From: Planctomycetales bacterium
Lineage (GTDB): Bacteria; Omnitrophota; Gorgyraeia; Zapsychrales; Zapsychraceae
Reading direction: 5' to 3'
Length of the DNA: 46,164 bases
Assembly (NCBI GenBank): GCA_005239675.1
Contig: SBBO01000022.1
Location: 1 to 46,164, forward strand
Each line of letters opens with the position of its first letter. Positions within the stretch are counted from its first letter, which is position 1. The notes below the pieces were generated by a model. It saw nothing but the letters and a program-made list of their open reading frames with translations, searched no databases and was not told the DNA's origin. The position numbers were made by a program, and so were the translations under genes. Shown one piece after another: positions 25,371-33,618 of this stretch.

Positions 25371-27044
25371 TCAACTCTCTTTGTATTTATTGGTAATCGG
25401 CAATCGCCAGTCCTTGCCGAAGGCCCGCGGGGTAATCTTGATGCCCGGCGGGGCCTGCCGACGCTTGTATTCATTATGATCAACCATCGCAATCACTTTC
25501 TTGACCAATTCCCGGTCCTTGGTGCGTACCATATCTGCCAAAGACCGATGCCCCTCCACATATTCACTCAAGATCTGATCCAAAACGTCGTAAGCCGGCA
25601 GAGAATCCTGATCTTGCTGGTTTTCTCGCAGTTCAGCGGTGGGGGGGCGCTCGAACACACTTTGAGGGATCACGGGCTTATGTTGCTGAGCATTGTACCG
25701 TTGCGCCAAGGCGTACACCTGCGTCTTATGGACGTCTTTGATCACGGCAAAACCCCCGCTCATGTCCCCATACAACGTGCAATACCCCACCCCCACCTCG
25801 CTTTTATTGCCTGTTGTCAAAACCAGGCTCCCCCAACGATTCGACAGCGCCATCAGCAGGGTACCCCGAATACGTGCCTGTAGATTTTCCTCTGTCACGC
25901 CAAAAGGATGCTCCCCGAAAATATCCTGCAACTGCCCCAGATACGCGGCGAATATCCCCTCGATGGGAATTTCATAAAATTTGATCCCCAGATGGGTGGA
26001 TACAATCTGTGCATCCGTCCTAGTCTCGGCGCAAGTAAACCGCGAAGGCATGGAAATCCCGATCACATGGTCTTGACCAACAGCATCGACAGCAATGGCA
26101 GCAACGAGCGACGAATCAATACCACCACTTAATCCAATCAAGACATCACGAAATTTATTTTTGCGAACATAATCTCTCGTGCCCAAGACCAACGCCCTGT
26201 AAATCCCATCGATCGTTGACAAGCTAGAGGAGACTTGTCGTTGAATCGGCGCCTTGATAGTAGAGATAACACCCTTGCTCAATAGTATTGTTGACGATAC
26301 TCTTCTTTTTAATGGTAGGGGGATATCGGCGACAACCAAATCTTCTTCAAATTGCCTGCCGAAGGCAATCGTTCGACCGCGCGGATCAATGATAAAACTC
26401 CCACCATCGAAGACCAGCTCGTCCTGGCCGCCAACAAGATTCACGTAACCAATAAACGCCTTGGTCTGCCTGGCACGCTTCTGTAACAACTCTTGCCGCC
26501 TTTTCAGCTTACCCACATCATACGGCGAGCTGGAAATATTGATCAACAAAGAGACGCCCCGGCGCGCCTGGGTAGCGCATATGCCACCCTCGACCCAGAT
26601 GTCCTCACAGATGGTTACGCCAAAGACATGACCAGCCAATGAAAAAACAATGTCATCGGCTCCGGATTTGAAATACCGTTTTTCATCAAAGACCCCATAA
26701 TTGGGCAATTCTTTTTTACGGTAAACGCCTTTAATCAGGCCATCGGCAATCACGGCGGCGGCGTTGTACAGCTGCTTGTTTGTATCCATGTCCACAAATC
26801 CGATAACGGCAGCAATCCCTCTAATCTTGCGGGCCAATGCCTGTAAGGATCGAATGGTGTCACGGACAAAATGCTCTTTTAAGAGTAGGTCTTCCGGTGG
26901 ATATCCACAGATCGCCAGCTCTGGGAAGGCAACGATATCCACCTGCCGACCCTTGGCCTGTTCAATAGAGGCCACAATCAACTGGGCGTTACCGGCTAGG
27001 TCGCCGACCGTTGGATTGATTTGTGCTAGACCGATACGTAGCAT
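25371..27044 (-). CDS. nadE: Glutamine-dependent NAD(+) synthetase
   Basis: This protein converts nicotinate adenine dinucleotide to NAD using glutamine-derived ammonia. The 557-aa product has an N-terminal nitrilase-type glutaminase domain (catalytic Glu in VAFPELAICGYPPEDLL, Lys in YRKKELPNYGVFDE, Cys in GVTICEDIWVEGG) and a C-terminal synthetase with the PP-loop GLSGGIDSSLVAAIAVDAVG near residue 300 and TGNKSEVGVGYCTLYGDMSGG. Both sites appear intact. It lies 13 bp after the glutamine amidotransferase gene. Confidence 0.96.
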   Translation of the reverse strand: MLRIGLAQINPTVGDLAGNAQLIVASIEQAKGRQVDIVAFPELAICGYPPEDLLLKEHFVRDTIRSLQALARKIRGIAAVIGFVDMDTNKQLYNAAAVIADGLIKGVYRKKELPNYGVFDEKRYFKSGADDIVFSLAGHVFGVTICEDIWVEGGICATQARRGVSLLINISSSPYDVGKLKRRQELLQKRARQTKAFIGYVNLVGGQDELVFDGGSFIIDPRGRTIAFGRQFEEDLVVADIPLPLKRRVSSTILLSKGVISTIKAPIQRQVSSSLSTIDGIYRALVLGTRDYVRKNKFRDVLIGLSGGIDSSLVAAIAVDAVGQDHVIGISMPSRFTCAETRTDAQIVSTHLGIKFYEIPIEGIFAAYLGQLQDIFGEHPFGVTEENLQARIRGTLLMALSNRWGSLVLTTGNKSEVGVGYCTLYGDMSGGFAVIKDVHKTQVYALAQRYNAQQHKPVIPQSVFERPPTAELRENQQDQDSLPAYDVLDQILSEYVEGHRSLADMVRTKDRELVKKVIAMVDHNEYKRRQAPPGIKITPRAFGKDWRLPITNKYKES

Positions 27045-27057
27045 GGATACAACAAAA

Positions 27058-27792
27058 TTATAAACGTGCCTTTGCGTTAACGGTTGTGTTCTTTTCTGCT
27101 ATTATTTTTAGAAAGTTCTCATATATTTTATCAGCAACGTCCTTGAATCGTTCTTTTTTATTTTGGTAATCATCGACCATCTTCTGTCTTTGAGCAATAA
27201 GGGTAGTATCCCCTTGGTCAAGATATTCCTCTGTCCACTCACGAATACTGCGGTCGGTTATCTCCAGATGGAATTGCAGACCGTACGCATAACGCCCGAT
27301 GCGCATGGCCTGATGCGGACATCCGCAAGAGGATGCCAACCACTCTGCGCCTTTCGGGATTTGAAACATATCCCCATGCCATTGGAAAACCTCCAGTTTG
27401 CGTTCCAATCCCTGAAACAGGGGATCATGCACCCCAGCCGACGTCAGCTCAACAGAAAAAAACCCAATCTCTTTTTGTGGAGATTTTCCGACACTGGCCC
27501 TACAGGCCTTGGCCAACAATTGGGCGCCCAGGCATATCCCCAGCAAGGGAATTTCCTGTGCCAGGGCCTCTTGGATGAAACTATCTTCCGCTTTTAAAAA
27601 AGGATATTTATCTTCCTCGTCAACGTTCATAGGACCGCCCAAGATAACAAGCGCCTTAATACCATCCCAGGAAATTGGCAATCGGTCGCCAGCGCCCAAA
27701 TCAATTGTCTTGGTTATATATCCTCGATCAGAAAAGAAATCACCTAACGTCCCGGGACCTTCAATATCAATATGTTTAATAAATAATATCAT
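27058..27792 (-). CDS. Class I glutamine amidotransferase (GMP-synthase-like)
   Basis: A stand-alone class I glutamine amidotransferase of COG0518 type, 244 aa from the preferred start. The nucleophile elbow is GICLGAQLLAKA, with the Cys near residue 84. The catalytic His-Glu pair is in GLQFHLEIT. An in-frame ATG at 27828 overlaps the glnA terminator, so I chose the ATG at 27792, which begins MILFIKHID. Such proteins hydrolyse glutamine or gamma-glutamyl compounds, and the true substrate is not visible. It is co-directional with nadE and lies downstream of glnA. Confidence 0.85.
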   Translation of the reverse strand: MILFIKHIDIEGPGTLGDFFSDRGYITKTIDLGAGDRLPISWDGIKALVILGGPMNVDEEDKYPFLKAEDSFIQEALAQEIPLLGICLGAQLLAKACRASVGKSPQKEIGFFSVELTSAGVHDPLFQGLERKLEVFQWHGDMFQIPKGAEWLASSCGCPHQAMRIGRYAYGLQFHLEITDRSIREWTEEYLDQGDTTLIAQRQKMVDDYQNKKERFKDVADKIYENFLKIIAEKNTTVNAKARL

Positions 27793-27825
27793 GGTCAAGT
27801 GAGCGCGCCCTACCAGGTGCACCAC

Positions 27826-27860
27826 CAAAAAAAGCCCTGTACTGTACGGTACAGGGCTTT
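27826..27860 (-). terminator. Strong intrinsic terminator after glnA
   Basis: A perfect 12-bp inverted repeat AAAGCCCTGTAC / GTACAGGGCTTT with a 6-nt loop lies 37-66 bp past the glnA stop. On the minus strand it is followed by a run of T residues, fitting termination of glnA transcription. On the plus strand the T-run is only three bases long. Confidence 0.85.
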
Positions 27861-27896: not shown

Positions 27897-29420
27897 TTAA
27901 ACATCAAAATACAGATAGAACTCGTGTGGATGCGGCCTTAAACGCATCGCATCGATCTCCACCTGATGTTTGTATTCAATCCAGACATCGATCACATCTG
28001 GCGTGAATACCCCACCCTCGAGAAGGAACTGACGATCCTTATCTAGGGCATCCAGGGACTCCTCTAACGAACGAGGAACAGTCTTGATTTTCTTCGCTTC
28101 GTTCTCTGGGAGTTCATAGATGTTTTTTTCAATGGGTTGTCCCGGATCAATCTTATTATTGATGCCATCGAGTCCTGCCATCAGCATCGCCGCAAAGGCA
28201 AGATACGGATTGGCCGATGGGTCAGGCGGTCTAAACTCGATTCTCTTGGATTTTTCGCTCTTGGAATACATCGGGATACGAACAGCTGCCGAGCGGTTTC
28301 TCTGGGAGTAAACCAGGTTGACCGGCGCCTCATATCCAGGGACCAACCTCTTGTAGGAATTGGTCGTCGGGGCGCAAAACGCCATCAAGGCATGGGCATG
28401 CTTGAGCAACCCACCAATGTACCATTTGGCCATATCGCTCAACAAGGCATAGCCATTCTTGTCAAAGAATAGGTTCTTACCATCGTTCCACAAACTCTGA
28501 TGCACGTGCATCCCAGAACCGTTATCCTTGAAGATTGGTTTGGGCATGAAGGTGGCGGTCATATTGTATTTCTTAGCGGTATTCTTAATGATGTATTTAT
28601 ACCACAGAAGATTGTCACCCATCTTTGTCAGCGTACCATAGCGGATATCGATCTCGCACTGACCGCCGGTTGCGACCTCATGGTGATGAACCTCCACCGG
28701 AACTCCAACCTTTCTTAATGTCAGCATGATTTCCGAGCGGATGTCCTGTAAGGTGTCGTGTGGTGGAACGGGGAAATACCCTTCCTTGTAACGCGGTTTA
28801 TACCCAAGGTTCGGCTTCTCGTCGCGTCCTGTATTCCAATCACCCTCATTAGAATCAATAAAATAGTAACCAGAATTTTCTGTCTGGTCGAAGCGGACAT
28901 CGTTTAAAAGAAAGAATTCTGCTTCCGGCCCCCAATAACTGGCTGTAGCAATCTTAGATTTGATCAAATATTGCTCTGCCTTTTTAGCGATGTAGCGCGG
29001 GTCGCGGCTGTAGGGGTCGTGTGTCACTGGATCAAAAATATCACAGATAATACTGACCGTAGGTATCTGACAAACTGGGTCGATAACAGCGCTCGTTGGG
29101 TCGAGCTTCAAAATCATGTCGCTTTCCTGGATCTTCTGAAAACCCCGAATACTAGAACCGTCAAAGCCGATGCCATCATTCCAAATACTATGTGGATGGT
29201 CAACGTCTTCGATGGCCTCCGCCGTAGGAATAGAAAAATGTTGCCATAGGCCTGGGAGGTCGTTAAATTTCAGGTCAATGATCTGGATATTGTTTTTCTT
29301 GATAAGTTCAACAACGCCTTGGACCGCCTTGACCGCACCATCTGTGCCTTGCCGAGACGTGGCCTTGGCCACGGCAGCACGCCGGGTCGCTGGGTCTGTT
29401 CTCGTTACTAGTGTTGTCAT
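27897..29420 (-). CDS. glnA: Glutamine synthetase, type I
   Basis: GlnA makes glutamine from glutamate and ammonia with ATP. The product is 507 aa from the chosen start. It contains [18 protein letters not shown] (the family's DGSS region), [10 protein letters not shown], the metal/ATP region [33 protein letters not shown], the NRSAAVRIP signature, and a KNIYELP segment equivalent to the adenylylation site, whose Tyr is present. The ATG at 29420 has an AGGAG at 7-nt spacing. The in-frame ATG at 29450 would put that site inside the gene, so I reject it. About 30 N-terminal residues precede the conserved domain. A structured leader lies upstream. Confidence 0.95.
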
Positions 29421-29505: not shown

Positions 29506-29543
29506 AAAAAATCCGATACCCTCTCCCAAACAAGAATATCGGA
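29506..29543 (-). terminator. Intrinsic terminator/attenuator in the glnA leader
   Basis: In the minus-strand RNA, UCCGAUA (29543-29537) pairs with UAUCGGA (29518-29512). The stem continues with wobble-rich pairs (UUCUU with GAGGG) to about 12 bp around an 8-nt loop. Six U residues follow directly. It lies between the upstream promoter and the glnA ATG, so it would stop transcripts before glnA unless relieved. Confidence 0.65.
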
Positions 29544-29654
29544 CCTCTGTGCCCAATCATTCTACTGTCACTGTCGAACCGTCGCTAGTCTGGCCGACCC
29601 TTCGTTCCTAGACTAAGGGTGTATACGGAACATCAAGACAACTACCTAGATAAT
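29544..29654 (-). ncRNA. Candidate structured leader RNA or small RNA upstream of glnA
   Basis: From the predicted start near 29654 to the terminator, the transcript would be about 150 nt. It holds complementary segments that compete or interleave: GUUCC (29631-29627) with GGAAC (29608-29604), CCCUU (29619-29615) with AAGGG (29602-29598), and UAGUCU (29615-29610) with AGACUA (29591-29586). It does not match the glnA glutamine riboswitch as I remember it. It may be a cis-acting switch or a free RNA. Confidence 0.4.
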
Positions 29655-29756
29655 GGGCAGAATATACCCTGCACTCCCAAATTTGTCAAGGTTTTTTTAA
29701 GCGGAAGAGGCTGTGGAAGCAGTGGCAACTTTAATCTCCCACAGGCATCGAGCAGC
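29590..29756. repeat. Left copy of a ~166-bp direct repeat flanking the carbohydrate-active insert
   Basis: Matches 32484-32649 in the same orientation, with about four to five substitutions and one single-base length difference. It contains the last 20 or so codons of galT, the promoter and the start of the leader RNA. Here the galT tail is joined in frame to a GH10 fragment rather than to galT. Confidence 0.95.
29661..29689 (-). promoter_or_regulatory. Near-consensus sigma70 promoter upstream of glnA (left repeat copy)
   Basis: TTGACA (29689-29684), 17-bp spacer and TATATT (29666-29661) on the minus strand. The -35 box lies a few bases from the stop codon of the galT-tail reading frame. 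It reads through the candidate leader RNA toward glnA. The same promoter is present in the right repeat copy. Confidence 0.8.
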
Positions 29757-29981
29757 CTCCGTGAAGTCAAAGTCAGCCTGGGTCGGGCGACTACCATCAC
29801 CCCCAAAAATCCCAACAGCCATCACGTCCATCTCCCGCTCGAAGATCTGATCGTAACGGTCGCTGCGCAGGTCGTACTGGTAGAAGGCGCCGAATTTGAT
29901 GCCCCGTCGTCCGGCAAGCGTCTTGAGGGGCTCGGGGCTGCGGGGCGATCGCGCACAGGAGGGGTGGGAGTCCCCAACCAT
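29697..29981 (-). pseudogene. Truncated GH10 (xylanase-type) N-terminal fragment fused in frame to the galT tail
   Basis: The reading frame contains LKTLAGRRGIKFGAF, then IFEREMDVMAV, GGDGSRPTQADFDFTEA. This matches the start of a GH10 catalytic domain (the LAxxRGIKxG strand and the DFTEAD strand before the substrate cleft). After FTEA the sequence switches to ARCLWEIKVATAS..., which is the galT C terminus duplicated in the repeat. All GH10 catalytic residues are missing. It overlaps the end of the GH5 frame, so a frameshift may once have joined GH5, a Pro-rich linker and GH10 into one enzyme. I infer non-functionality. Confidence 0.6.
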
Positions 29982-31300
29982 AACTCCTGAAACAGTTTGA
30001 TGAGGTCGTGATTGGGGGTGACCTGATCGGTTCGGCTCGTCTCATACCCCGTCCCATCCTCGGAGGCCGCATCGTGATCCCAATCATAGAACCCAAAGTC
30101 GGGGTCTCGAAACGCCCAGTTTAAGATAATAGGAATCTCCAACTCTTGCGCGATCTGGTAAACATCCCGGTAATACTGAGCACGCGACGTCTGGTCCGCA
30201 TGCGCATTGGCGGCAAATTCCCCCAACATGAACGCCACCTGTCCGTGATTGGGGGCCGACATGATGTGCTGGATGAGGGCCTTGAGTTTCGCTTTGTCAT
30301 ACCACACCTCTTCAATGGTGGCAGGATAGCGAAACACATCGGCCGGATCGATCGCCCCTGGCAACCAATCGACCCCTTGATGGGTGAAGAGAAACGGTTC
30401 ATAAAAATGAAACTCGTAGACAATGTTGGGATCGTCGAACGCCTGATCGTGGAATGTATCATCCATGCTCTGCGCCACAAAAATGATGTGATGCTCGTCC
30501 TCTGCCTCGGTGCGGATGGCGTGGATCGTTCGCTCCACCAGGGGGAGATAGTGCTCGTCCGTTGTGGCCGGCTCATTCATGAGCCCATAGCCGACAATGG
30601 CGGTTTCGTCCTTGTACTGCTTCGCGATAAACACCCAGAGGTCCACAAACTGATCTTGGAGCGTCTGGTCCTCCCAGATAGCTTGACTCGCGTCATCCTC
30701 AGGACTGTACCCCTGGTAGCCACCTGGAGGGATGTGTAGATCCAAGATCAGGCTGATCCCATGGGTCTTGCCCCAGCCAAGATGGCGATCGATGTACTGG
30801 ATGCCGACAGCATTGGAGGAAAGCACCCCATCCACAGAAAACCATTCATGGGAGAGCGACAGCCGGACGACATTCGCACCCCATGAGGCAAGATGCGCGT
30901 AGTCCTGTTCGGTGACGTACCAGGCATAGGGGGTCCTCCCCGAATCCGAAATGGCGTAGTTACAGATATTAGTTCCCTGCAACGTGATAGGCTGACCATC
31001 TTTAAGAAGGCGTGTTCCTGAGACTTGAAAGAACGCACTGGATGGTGGCTCGGCATGCGCATCGTTGGGCGAGAGGCCTCCTCCGGCCCCCCTCGTGGTG
31101 AGGATGGCCATCACCAGCAGCAGCATGGGGATCATGGCAATGCCAGACGCTTTAGCGAGGTCATGCCTCAGTTTCGATGGGGTCCACAGACTCCTTGGCG
31201 TTGGCACCACGCGATCCCCCAGCTTCTTGTTGGAGATAGACGATGGGGACTGGTTTTGAAGGTGCCTGTCCTGGTTTTTGTCCGCTCCCAACATGATCAT
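29822..31300 (-). CDS. Membrane-anchored GH5 glycoside hydrolase
   Basis: A family 5 glycosidase of up to 492 aa. From the ATG at 31300, 2 bp after the esterase stop, it has a polar leader of about 55 residues, a hydrophobic anchor or signal segment (GIAMIPMLLLVMAIL), and then the TIM-barrel. Barrel motifs include GTNICNY, VVRLSLSHEWF, ILDLHIPPGGYQG, the acid/base Glu in GLMNEPATT, VYEFHFYEPFLF, and the nucleophile Glu in FMLGEFAANAH. Both catalytic glutamates are present. After LFQELW the frame becomes Pro-rich and then nonsense-like, overlapping a GH10 fragment in another frame, so the true C terminus is probably disrupted. The substrate is probably a beta-glucan or hemicellulose. Confidence 0.82.
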   Translation of the reverse strand: MIMLGADKNQDRHLQNQSPSSISNKKLGDRVVPTPRSLWTPSKLRHDLAKASGIAMIPMLLLVMAILTTRGAGGGLSPNDAHAEPPSSAFFQVSGTRLLKDGQPITLQGTNICNYAISDSGRTPYAWYVTEQDYAHLASWGANVVRLSLSHEWFSVDGVLSSNAVGIQYIDRHLGWGKTHGISLILDLHIPPGGYQGYSPEDDASQAIWEDQTLQDQFVDLWVFIAKQYKDETAIVGYGLMNEPATTDEHYLPLVERTIHAIRTEAEDEHHIIFVAQSMDDTFHDQAFDDPNIVYEFHFYEPFLFTHQGVDWLPGAIDPADVFRYPATIEEVWYDKAKLKALIQHIMSAPNHGQVAFMLGEFAANAHADQTSRAQYYRDVYQIAQELEIPIILNWAFRDPDFGFYDWDHDAASEDGTGYETSRTDQVTPNHDLIKLFQELWLGTPTPPVRDRPAAPSPSRRLPDDGASNSAPSTSTTCAATVTIRSSSGRWT

Positions 31301-31302
31301 GT

Positions 31303-32301
31303 TCACTTGGAGTGCTTCTGAAAGAAATCCCAGATTACATCCGTCGCGTTGAGTGTGGCGACATTCTTCCCCGCCACACGCTCCGGCAGCGCGCTCCTCC
31401 CACCGGGCCAATGGTGCCCGTGCCCTACAATGGTGTAGACAACCATCGTATCCACTCCGTTGTGACGGCAATAGGCCTTGCCTGTTTCTCCTTCCTGTTC
31501 ATACACCACGCGCGGTTCGTCGGAACAGCCGTGGATGGTCACCCAATTGGCAATCATGTCTTGAGTCGAGGCTTTCTGACCGTATGAGGTTGCACCGATG
31601 CGAACCTCACCGCCCTCAAAAGGGTTCTGGGGATCGGCTGTGCCGGTGATGTACAATAGTGGCACCGCACGCCCAGGCGGTGTGTCACCCAGCCAGTCGG
31701 CACCCGCAACGGGAGCCATCGCCGCGATCACCTGCGATAACTCGCGAGCCACGCGAAACGACATGGAGGCGCCATTGGAGAAACCGGTCACATAGATCCG
31801 GCGCGCGTCGATTGTGAAACGTTCCTTCAGATCGTTAAGCATCGCTGCAACGAACGCCACATCCGCGACGTGACGTGCTGCCGCACCAATCCGTTCGCTG
31901 CCATCGTTCCACGTTTGCGGGTTGCGCCTGAAACTCGCTGGCCGGGACGGGTCGTGCGGCGTGCCCTCGGGGAAAACCGCCAGAAAATGTTCCTGGTCCG
32001 CCTTCTTCGCCCACTCGGTCTGCCAGATGGCGTTTCTGGCCGTCCCGCCCCCACCATGGAACATGATCACGATAGGCAAGGGGCTCTTTCCCGTGTAGTG
32101 TTGTGGGAGATGGAGGATGTATTCGCGCGGGGTGTCTTCAACAGTTACGGTCAGCTTGTAATTCCCAGGCGTGTACTCGGCCACACGTGTTCCGGAAGCG
32201 AACGCATCCTGTGTCTGTCTCCATCGTGTGATGCGGGCACCCAAGATGATGGGCGTGATGACCAACACAGTAGCGAGTAATACCGGCGTGCTCTTTTTCA
32301 T
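31303..32301 (-). CDS. Exported CE1/LpqC-type esterase (feruloyl or acetylxylan esterase-like)
   Basis: A 332-aa alpha/beta hydrolase of the poly(3-hydroxybutyrate) depolymerase/LpqC group, part of which falls in carbohydrate esterase family 1. It has an N-terminal signal or anchor helix (residues about 5-21). The oxyanion-hole region is IVIMFHGGGGTARNA. The nucleophile is in VTGFSNGASMSF, the Asp in YITGTADPQNPF, and the His in VGHGHHWPGG. Next to GH5 and a GH10 fragment, deacylation of plant xylan side groups is a reasonable role, but depolymerase activity on polyesters cannot be excluded. Sampled lines of this segment are relatively GC-rich. Confidence 0.85.
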   Translation of the reverse strand: MKKSTPVLLATVLVITPIILGARITRWRQTQDAFASGTRVAEYTPGNYKLTVTVEDTPREYILHLPQHYTGKSPLPIVIMFHGGGGTARNAIWQTEWAKKADQEHFLAVFPEGTPHDPSRPASFRRNPQTWNDGSERIGAAARHVADVAFVAAMLNDLKERFTIDARRIYVTGFSNGASMSFRVARELSQVIAAMAPVAGADWLGDTPPGRAVPLLYITGTADPQNPFEGGEVRIGATSYGQKASTQDMIANWVTIHGCSDEPRVVYEQEGETGKAYCRHNGVDTMVVYTIVGHGHHWPGGRSALPERVAGKNVATLNATDVIWDFFQKHSK

Positions 32302-32452
32302 GAATGTCTGTTGCGCCTACAATCGGCTGCAGAACTTCCTGCGCTAGATTGCCGTGATGGATCAGCCTCTGCCCATTGACCCATCGACTTCACTTTAGAT
32401 AACACCACCTAGAGAGGGATTCCACATTGGACCAGCCTAGAAGGATAAAAAA

Positions 32453-32482
32453 GCTTGACAAATTTTGAAGTACAGGATATAG
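32453..32482 (+). promoter_or_regulatory. Plus-strand promoter-like element, inverted relative of the repeat promoter
   Basis: TTGACA, a 17-bp spacer and TATAGC read on the plus strand just outside the right repeat copy. The sequence from TTGACAAATTT through the -10 box resembles the minus-strand promoter inside the repeat, so it may be an inverted partial copy. It points into galT in the antisense direction. Confidence 0.4.
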
Positions 32483-32483
32483 C

Positions 32484-32649
32484 CTGGCCGACCCTTCGTT
32501 CCTAGACTAAGGGTGTATACGGAACATCAAGACAACTACCTAGATAATGGGTAGAATATACCCTGCACTCCCAAATTTGTCAAAATTTTTTAAGCGGAAG
32601 AGGCTGTGGAAGCAGTGGCAACTTTAATCTCCCGCAGGCATCGAGCAGC
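32484..32649. repeat. Right copy of the ~166-bp direct repeat
   Basis: This is the copy attached to the intact galT. It covers the galT C terminus from ARCLREIK to the stop, the promoter and the first part of the leader RNA. Its left boundary falls where the esterase upstream region begins. Confidence 0.95.
32555..32583 (-). promoter_or_regulatory. Near-consensus promoter in the right repeat copy, reading toward the esterase/GH5 genes
   Basis: TTGACA (32583-32578), 17-bp spacer and TATATT (32560-32555) on the minus strand, immediately after the galT stop. Transcripts would run about 250 nt to the esterase ATG at 32301. The glnA-type terminator is not part of this copy. I see no other clear promoter in 32302-32483. 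Confidence 0.7.
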
Positions 32650-33618
32650 ATGGCTGGGATCGGTCGGTACACTAAAAAACCCCGTCCCCCGCTCTAGGCC
32701 GATCGTGCGCATTAACTTGGGGATAATAGCAATATGCCAGTGAAAATGCTCATAGCTACTGTCATTAACCGGCGCGACATGAATATAAAAATTGTACGAA
32801 GGGTCCGCAAGGCATCTGTTAATCCTAATCATGGTGGTGCGTAAGATATTTCCTAAAGCACGCTTTTCCCCATCATTCATCGTGGCAAATCGACAGGAAT
32901 GTTCCCGCGGGATAATGCAGCATTCAAAAGGGTATCCTGAGGCAAAAGGACAAAAGGCCAAAAATTGGGGGTTATCAGCGATGATGCGGATTCCATCATG
33001 GTATTCCTGGGCAATCATGTCACAAGAGACGCAGCGCTGACAACGGTCATAATACGCCTTGATTGCCTCTAACTCCTGCATGACATATTGAGGGATCATG
33101 GGAAGCGCGATAATCTGACTGTGTGGGTGCTCTACAGTTGTGCCAGCGGATTCTCCATAATTCTTGAAAATTAAAATGTATTTAAATCTGCGGTCTTTGG
33201 TGAGGTCATTGAGTCGGCTCTGATATTTATCAATCACGTAGAATATCTCTTCGTCATCTAAATCAGCGAGGTTGCGCTCATGCACGGGAGTTTCAATAAA
33301 GACTTCGTGGGCACCGATGCCATTGGAGAGGGTGTACATGCCATCGTGACGTAAATCCAAAGTCCCCTCAATTCTTAAGGCCGGAAATTTATTAGAGACA
33401 ATACGCACCTCCCAACCCGGGGAATTGGCGGCTGAACCGCAAAGACGCAGCGCCTCAACCTCAGGCGGCGTGTAAAATTCTTTGCCGGGACAGAACTGGC
33501 ACGTGGTCTTGGCGCGAATGGCATGATCCTCCCTTTCATATTTCTCTGGTCCCCACGAGTCTTCCACATGGACAATAGCCCACTGTCCGTTAAGGGGATT
33601 ACGCCTTAATTCTGCCAT
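32590..33618 (-). CDS. galT: Galactose-1-phosphate uridylyltransferase
   Basis: A GalT-family HIT-superfamily nucleotidyltransferase of the Leloir pathway, 342 aa. The zinc-site cysteines are in CQFCPG (about residues 40-45). The active-site motif EHPHSQIIALP (His164-Pro-His166-Ser-Gln) is intact. The second HIT half includes FYIHVAPVND and HWHIAIIP. Its last 20 or so codons are part of the duplicated repeat. It lies 13 bp after the second GalT-like gene. Some homologues act on ADP-sugars or other sugar phosphates, so substrate is inferred. Confidence 0.88.
   Translation of the reverse strand: MAELRRNPLNGQWAIVHVEDSWGPEKYEREDHAIRAKTTCQFCPGKEFYTPPEVEALRLCGSAANSPGWEVRIVSNKFPALRIEGTLDLRHDGMYTLSNGIGAHEVFIETPVHERNLADLDDEEIFYVIDKYQSRLNDLTKDRRFKYILIFKNYGESAGTTVEHPHSQIIALPMIPQYVMQELEAIKAYYDRCQRCVSCDMIAQEYHDGIRIIADNPQFLAFCPFASGYPFECCIIPREHSCRFATMNDGEKRALGNILRTTMIRINRCLADPSYNFYIHVAPVNDSSYEHFHWHIAIIPKLMRTIGLERGTGFFSVPTDPSHAARCLREIKVATASTASSA

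Follow-up and report, generated by a model that had tools for sequence, protein, structure and literature searches.

Gene content of the locus

The window analysed here is a stretch of 46,164 nucleotides that makes up one whole contig (C17) of a 1.32-Mb, metagenome-type genome bin, which comprises 50 contigs and is 87% complete. The bin represents an uncultured bacterium of a genus within the phylum Candidatus Omnitrophota. Five genus-mates (G001–G005), 31 other genomes of the family and 383 other Omnitrophota genomes (384 searched) formed the comparison set. Between galT2 and glnA, the latter encoding a type I glutamine synthetase (GSI), the window carries an insert of ~2.7 kb that lies between two direct repeats and contains two intact genes for polysaccharide-degrading enzymes along with a truncated open reading frame (ORF; Table 1).

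Table 1. Features of the galT2–glnA region, in window coordinates. P denotes the promoter TTGACA-17-TATATT.
Feature	Coordinates	Strand	Remarks
GATase gene and nadE	25371..27828	(-)	Conserved anchor of the glutamine synthetase locus
glnA (GSI)	27897..29420	(-)	Left flank; probable start at 29420
Leader or small RNA	29507..29653	(-)	Would be read from left P; ends in a predicted intrinsic terminator
Left direct-repeat copy	29586..29756	(-)	galT2 3' tail (29697-29756), promoter and first ~70 nt of the leader/small RNA
Promoter P, left	29661..29689	(-)	Same promoter in G001 (L079:3920) and G004
Truncated ORF, 94 aa	29697..29981	(-)	Runs in frame into the duplicated galT2 tail across the left junction (29756/29757)
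GH5, endoglucanase-like	29822..31300	(-)	Intact; hydrophobic N-terminal segment; NEP and GEF catalytic motifs
Esterase, CE1/PHB-depolymerase-type	31303..32301	(-)	Intact; hydrophobic N-terminus; GFSNG serine motif
Third P copy, inverted	32447..32489	(+)	Right edge of the insert; more diverged, 81% to the left copy
Right direct-repeat copy	32480..32649	(-)	True 3' end of galT2, promoter and first ~70 nt of the leader/small RNA
Promoter P, right	32555..32583	(-)	Faces the esterase-GH5 pair
galT2	32590..33618	(-)	Right flank; complete in the right copy; gap follows in genus-mates

The esterase had been assigned to the CE1 type in the original prediction, and this assignment is borne out by matches to PF10503 (E = 6e-7), to the NCBIfam model e_dPHAscl_type1 (above cut-off) and to the feruloyl esterase 9j07 on the PDB (E = 4e-18). 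The GH5 assignment is likewise upheld, by matches to PF00150 (E = 3e-27) and CelC (E = 1e-29) and by the presence of both glutamate motifs in the translation. Export-type N-terminal segments were read by eye in both proteins, and the esterase is probably exported. The GH5 start codon is situated 2 bases past the esterase stop codon, and the two genes are probably translated together because of this two-base separation. The truncated ORF overlaps the 3' end of the GH5 gene in another frame. Its proposed identity as a GH10 fragment is plausible by eye, but this short fragment gave no match in Pfam, NCBIfam or the PDB, and the name was not retained.

The flanking direct repeats

The insert had been described as bounded by nearly identical, same-orientation repeats (29590-29756 and 32484-32649) with about five differences. 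Realignment confirmed this arrangement and extended both copies slightly; across 171 aligned columns they differ by 5 substitutions and a single 1-nt gap (96.5% identity), and their longest exact common stretch is 68 nt. Read along the minus strand, each copy runs from the last 20 codons of galT2 and its stop codon, through an A-rich stretch and P, into a further ~70 nt. The expected combination of the galT 3' end with this promoter was therefore found in both copies, and, as had been proposed, the event duplicated the promoter. No other long direct repeat is present in the window, and a genome search revealed no further copies of the repeat segment elsewhere in the bin.

The differences between the copies are distributed over both of them. 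In the galT2 tail of the left copy, the Arg of an LRE motif kept in relatives has been lost and is now Trp. In the right copy, the C preceding TTGACA has changed; the same C is kept in the left copy, in the inverted copy and in G001 and G004. Because the differences fall on both copies, duplication followed by drift is favoured, and the pattern suits a duplication made in place that is not brand new. The alignment also bears on the possibility of an assembly artefact, in which the assembler would have threaded a free circle, or the contig of another strain, through the repeat. Although a fragmented and incomplete metagenome-type bin is a setting in which such errors may arise, the copies differ at six places, and at the left junction an ORF continues in frame into the galT2 tail. 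Misassembly is improbable since no exact repeat exceeds 68 nt, which is below the usual short-read length.

Target duplications of transposons and insertion sequences are usually about 2-14 bp. The duplicated length of ~166-171 bp seen here agrees with the original prediction that these repeats are too long for a normal transposon target duplication. A site-specific integrative element was also considered and set aside, as the insert holds only the esterase, GH5 and truncated ORF and no integrase gene.

Promoter copies, leader RNA and terminator

P matches the consensus at 11 of 12 positions. The right copy probably drives the esterase and GH5 genes; no terminator is predicted between it and the esterase, and the resulting transcript would end at the leader terminator at 29507. 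The left copy would instead make the leader or small RNA, as in relatives. This RNA is closed by a predicted 17-pair intrinsic terminator (29548-29507), and the 3' hairpin was also found in G001 and G004. No Rfam family matched the window leader. Three species of the genus share, ahead of glutamine synthetase, a leader or small RNA whose promoter and terminator are conserved (window 29507-29653, L079:3953-4048 and L082:12262-12353). Among the other genera of the family, the P motif gave only 3-mismatch matches, which were taken as chance, and exact matches to the pattern in unrelated phyla were limited to two (a Bacteroidetes bin and Lysinibacillus).

On the 3' side of the leader terminator, a weaker -35-like TTGACA (29489-29484) with a poor -10 was read by eye and is absent from the promoter scan; a good ribosome site precedes the glnA start codon. 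Because the leader terminator stands between them, glnA probably does not depend on the left repeat promoter alone, and read-through control (attenuation) by the leader is possible. The proposal that the event gave the insert and glnA the same promoter holds insofar as a copy faces each, but the left copy reads a terminated leader rather than glnA directly.

The third, inverted copy of P directly adjoins the right repeat. Its end, GGCCAGGCTA, is a near match to GGCCAGACTA of the left copy, and the right junction falls on a 9/10-nt near-identity, GGCCAG[A/G]CTA, between the target and the end of the insert. The right junction may therefore sit on short homology of the kind used in microhomology joining. 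The inverted copy is probably older than the direct duplication, because it has diverged further than the direct copies have from each other.

Together with the right promoter, the inverted copy forms a 147-bp palindrome (32446-32592) of two convergent promoter copies, which is single in the genome. Its arms of 36-43 nt are 81-83% complementary and fold strongly (z -4.9), features that would suit the end of a gene-carrying mobile element, whether a transposon or a MITE. However, the palindrome is present on the right side of the insert only and nowhere else in the genome or genus, and its arms are a promoter that relatives conserve at a different locus. No transposase was recognised among the ORFs, and 166 bp is far above the usual target duplications. 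With no further palindrome copies, and with an inverted promoter copy at the right end in place of terminal inverted repeats at each end, a composite transposon or MITE is largely refuted, and a mobile-element origin of any such kind is scarcely credible.

History of the locus in the genus

In the genus-mates, galT2 and P belong to separate loci. The gene order in G001 and G005 is priA-fmt-galT1-galT2-gap, and in G004 a 3' remnant of galT2 lies directly before gap; galT was not found in G002 and G003, the two least complete of the genus-mates. In G001, P is situated directly behind ptsP, and its spacer is conserved. There it reads a leader or small RNA of ~100 nt that ends in a strong terminator; glnN (encoding GSIII), the GATase gene and nadE follow. 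G004 carries this promoter-leader too, flanked by ptsP and glnN and with one small additional gene close by, and G005 has ptsP-glnN-GATase-nadE without that promoter. The adjacency of galT and glnA is therefore not seen in relatives, three of which have gap behind galT2 and two of which have P at the ptsP/glnN locus.

This comparison indicates that galT2 became fused to the glutamine synthetase promoter-leader through a rearrangement in the present lineage. When the G001 locus was used as a DNA query against the bin itself, only the gene upstream of ptsP was found, on another contig, where it is followed by a metE-like gene and not by ptsP. The stand-alone gap of the genus-mates was not found in this genome, of which the bin covers 87%. 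Because the fusion point lies within both repeat copies, the insertion and duplication must be later than the fusion. The order galT-promoter-glnA, which had been proposed as ancestral, accordingly did precede the insertion but is not ancestral for the genus.

A second change is apparent at the same locus. The GSI gene sits exactly in the place of glnN, between the same promoter-leader and the GATase-nadE anchor, and the 31 other family genomes contained no match to it at E≤1e-10. GSIII appears to have been replaced in place by a gene that the other sampled family members lack. In the relatives, glnN is itself preceded by a long, well conserved 5' untranslated region (ATGCAAGGGC.ATGAAGTCCTCT...; L079:4150-4345, L081:11394-11590 and upstream of glnN in L082), a possible regulatory RNA that is absent from the window.

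Elsewhere in the same genome, the minus strand of contig C14 (L090:8418-16841) carries one uninterrupted frame of ~2800 aa whose N-terminus resembles an export signal. Its domains include triosephosphate isomerase, GAPDH and, as a weak match, a fructose-bisphosphatase-like domain, probably with others, and they are connected by repeated ASSPV, ASSPL and ASSPI linkers. The frame is a possible glycolytic polyprotein, and a literature search found no published account of one of this kind.

Composition and search for a donor

The insert has a GC content of 57.0%, compared with 48.3% for the rest. GC3 in the esterase and GH5 genes (0.67-0.68 vs 0.47-0.59) is above that of every other gene tested, but their amino-acid-corrected codon usage (z +0.4 and -1.2) falls inside the range of the host. 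In the comparison of composition that had been proposed, the insert therefore stands apart by GC and GC3 and not by corrected codon usage.

No relative of the GH5 enzyme at E≤1e-40 was found in the 383 other Omnitrophota genomes, and the esterase is absent from all five genus-mates. A donor was sought for GH5 among genome contigs, viral contigs, plasmids and Omnitrophota genomes, and for the esterase among viral contigs and plasmids; these searches returned distant family members at most. As DNA, the whole insert resembled nothing in the plasmid or phage collections. ORF and genome searches revealed no integrase, transposase or second genomic copy. The composition is shifted and the genus and phylum samples contained no close relatives, which together suggest that the insert is foreign in origin.

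Route of insertion

The reading that we favour, with a probability of about 0.52, is that a foreign segment entered by illegitimate recombination accompanied by duplication of its target. A piece of ~2.7 kb, in which the esterase-GH5 pair is complete and a third gene is broken, would have been inserted between galT2 and glnA. The route may have been a template switch at a broken replication fork, or an incoming fragment that bridged two sister chromatids. Copying would have departed from host sequence within the 5' portion of the leader/small-RNA gene and resumed on it ~166 bases upstream, within the last codons of galT2, and a target of ~166 bp would therefore stand on both sides. On the right, the copy would have kept galT2 whole and placed a strong promoter before the esterase and GH5 genes; on the left, the leader/small RNA before glnA would have stayed intact, as would its terminator.

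The layout, in which directly oriented homologous segments flank the insert, also fits a Campbell-type integration, in which a circle (a plasmid or a re-circularised fragment) already carrying the 166-bp segment beside the esterase and GH5 genes entered by a single crossover. This route has a precedent in E. coli, where single-crossover integration of re-circularised incoming DNA gives flanking duplications of 109-950 bp (PMC3240628), and a donor copy from another strain would account for the 3.5% divergence without drift. However, the circle would already have to hold both odd junctions, namely that of the broken ORF with the galT2 tail and that of the leader with the inverted promoter, and illegitimate joins are therefore needed here too. 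Nor did the plasmid and phage collections or the viral contigs offer similar DNA or a close protein relative, respectively, although donors may be unsampled. The same structure would result from a circular intermediate, and sequence alone does not separate the two routes. Two illegitimate joins are required under any model, and direct insertion with target duplication requires nothing more; Campbell-type integration is a possible but less likely origin.

A bolder reading is that the leader/small-RNA gene before glutamine synthetase is a preferred landing site for an undescribed, integrase-free form of cargo insertion that duplicates ~150-200 bp. Cargo arriving in this way would be supplied with a functional promoter, and the RNA gene would survive intact, but we consider this highly speculative and very unlikely.

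Comparison with known systems

Most likely, the event belongs to a known kind: the gene acquisition itself is ordinary, and the flanking duplication is unusual but has precedents, as the mechanism does in laboratory bacteria. It offers a readable case in which an uncultured bacterium appears to have gained polysaccharide-degrading enzymes and a ready promoter without a recognisable mobile element. It also reveals a stepwise history at one locus, where two loci were fused, GSI took the place of GSIII and an insertion followed the fusion.

Integration of re-circularised DNA in E. coli is alike in placing foreign DNA between host direct repeats of 100-1000 bp without a transposase. The present case differs in that its copies have diverged by 3.5%, short homology may lie at one junction and no donor or circle is known. 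In homology-facilitated illegitimate recombination, described in S. pneumoniae, Acinetobacter and P. stutzeri, foreign DNA of kb size is joined at homologies of 3-10 bp (PMC3240628), again without a mobile element; that process usually deletes host DNA, whereas here a host segment has been duplicated. Merodiploid formation by transformation in S. pneumoniae provides a model for such a duplication, as an incoming fragment bridges sister chromatids and the host DNA lying between the two points of contact becomes duplicated (PMC3784515). That pathway has been described for long homologous repeats and large duplications, in contrast to the 166-bp segment and illegitimate joins of the insert between galT2 and glnA.
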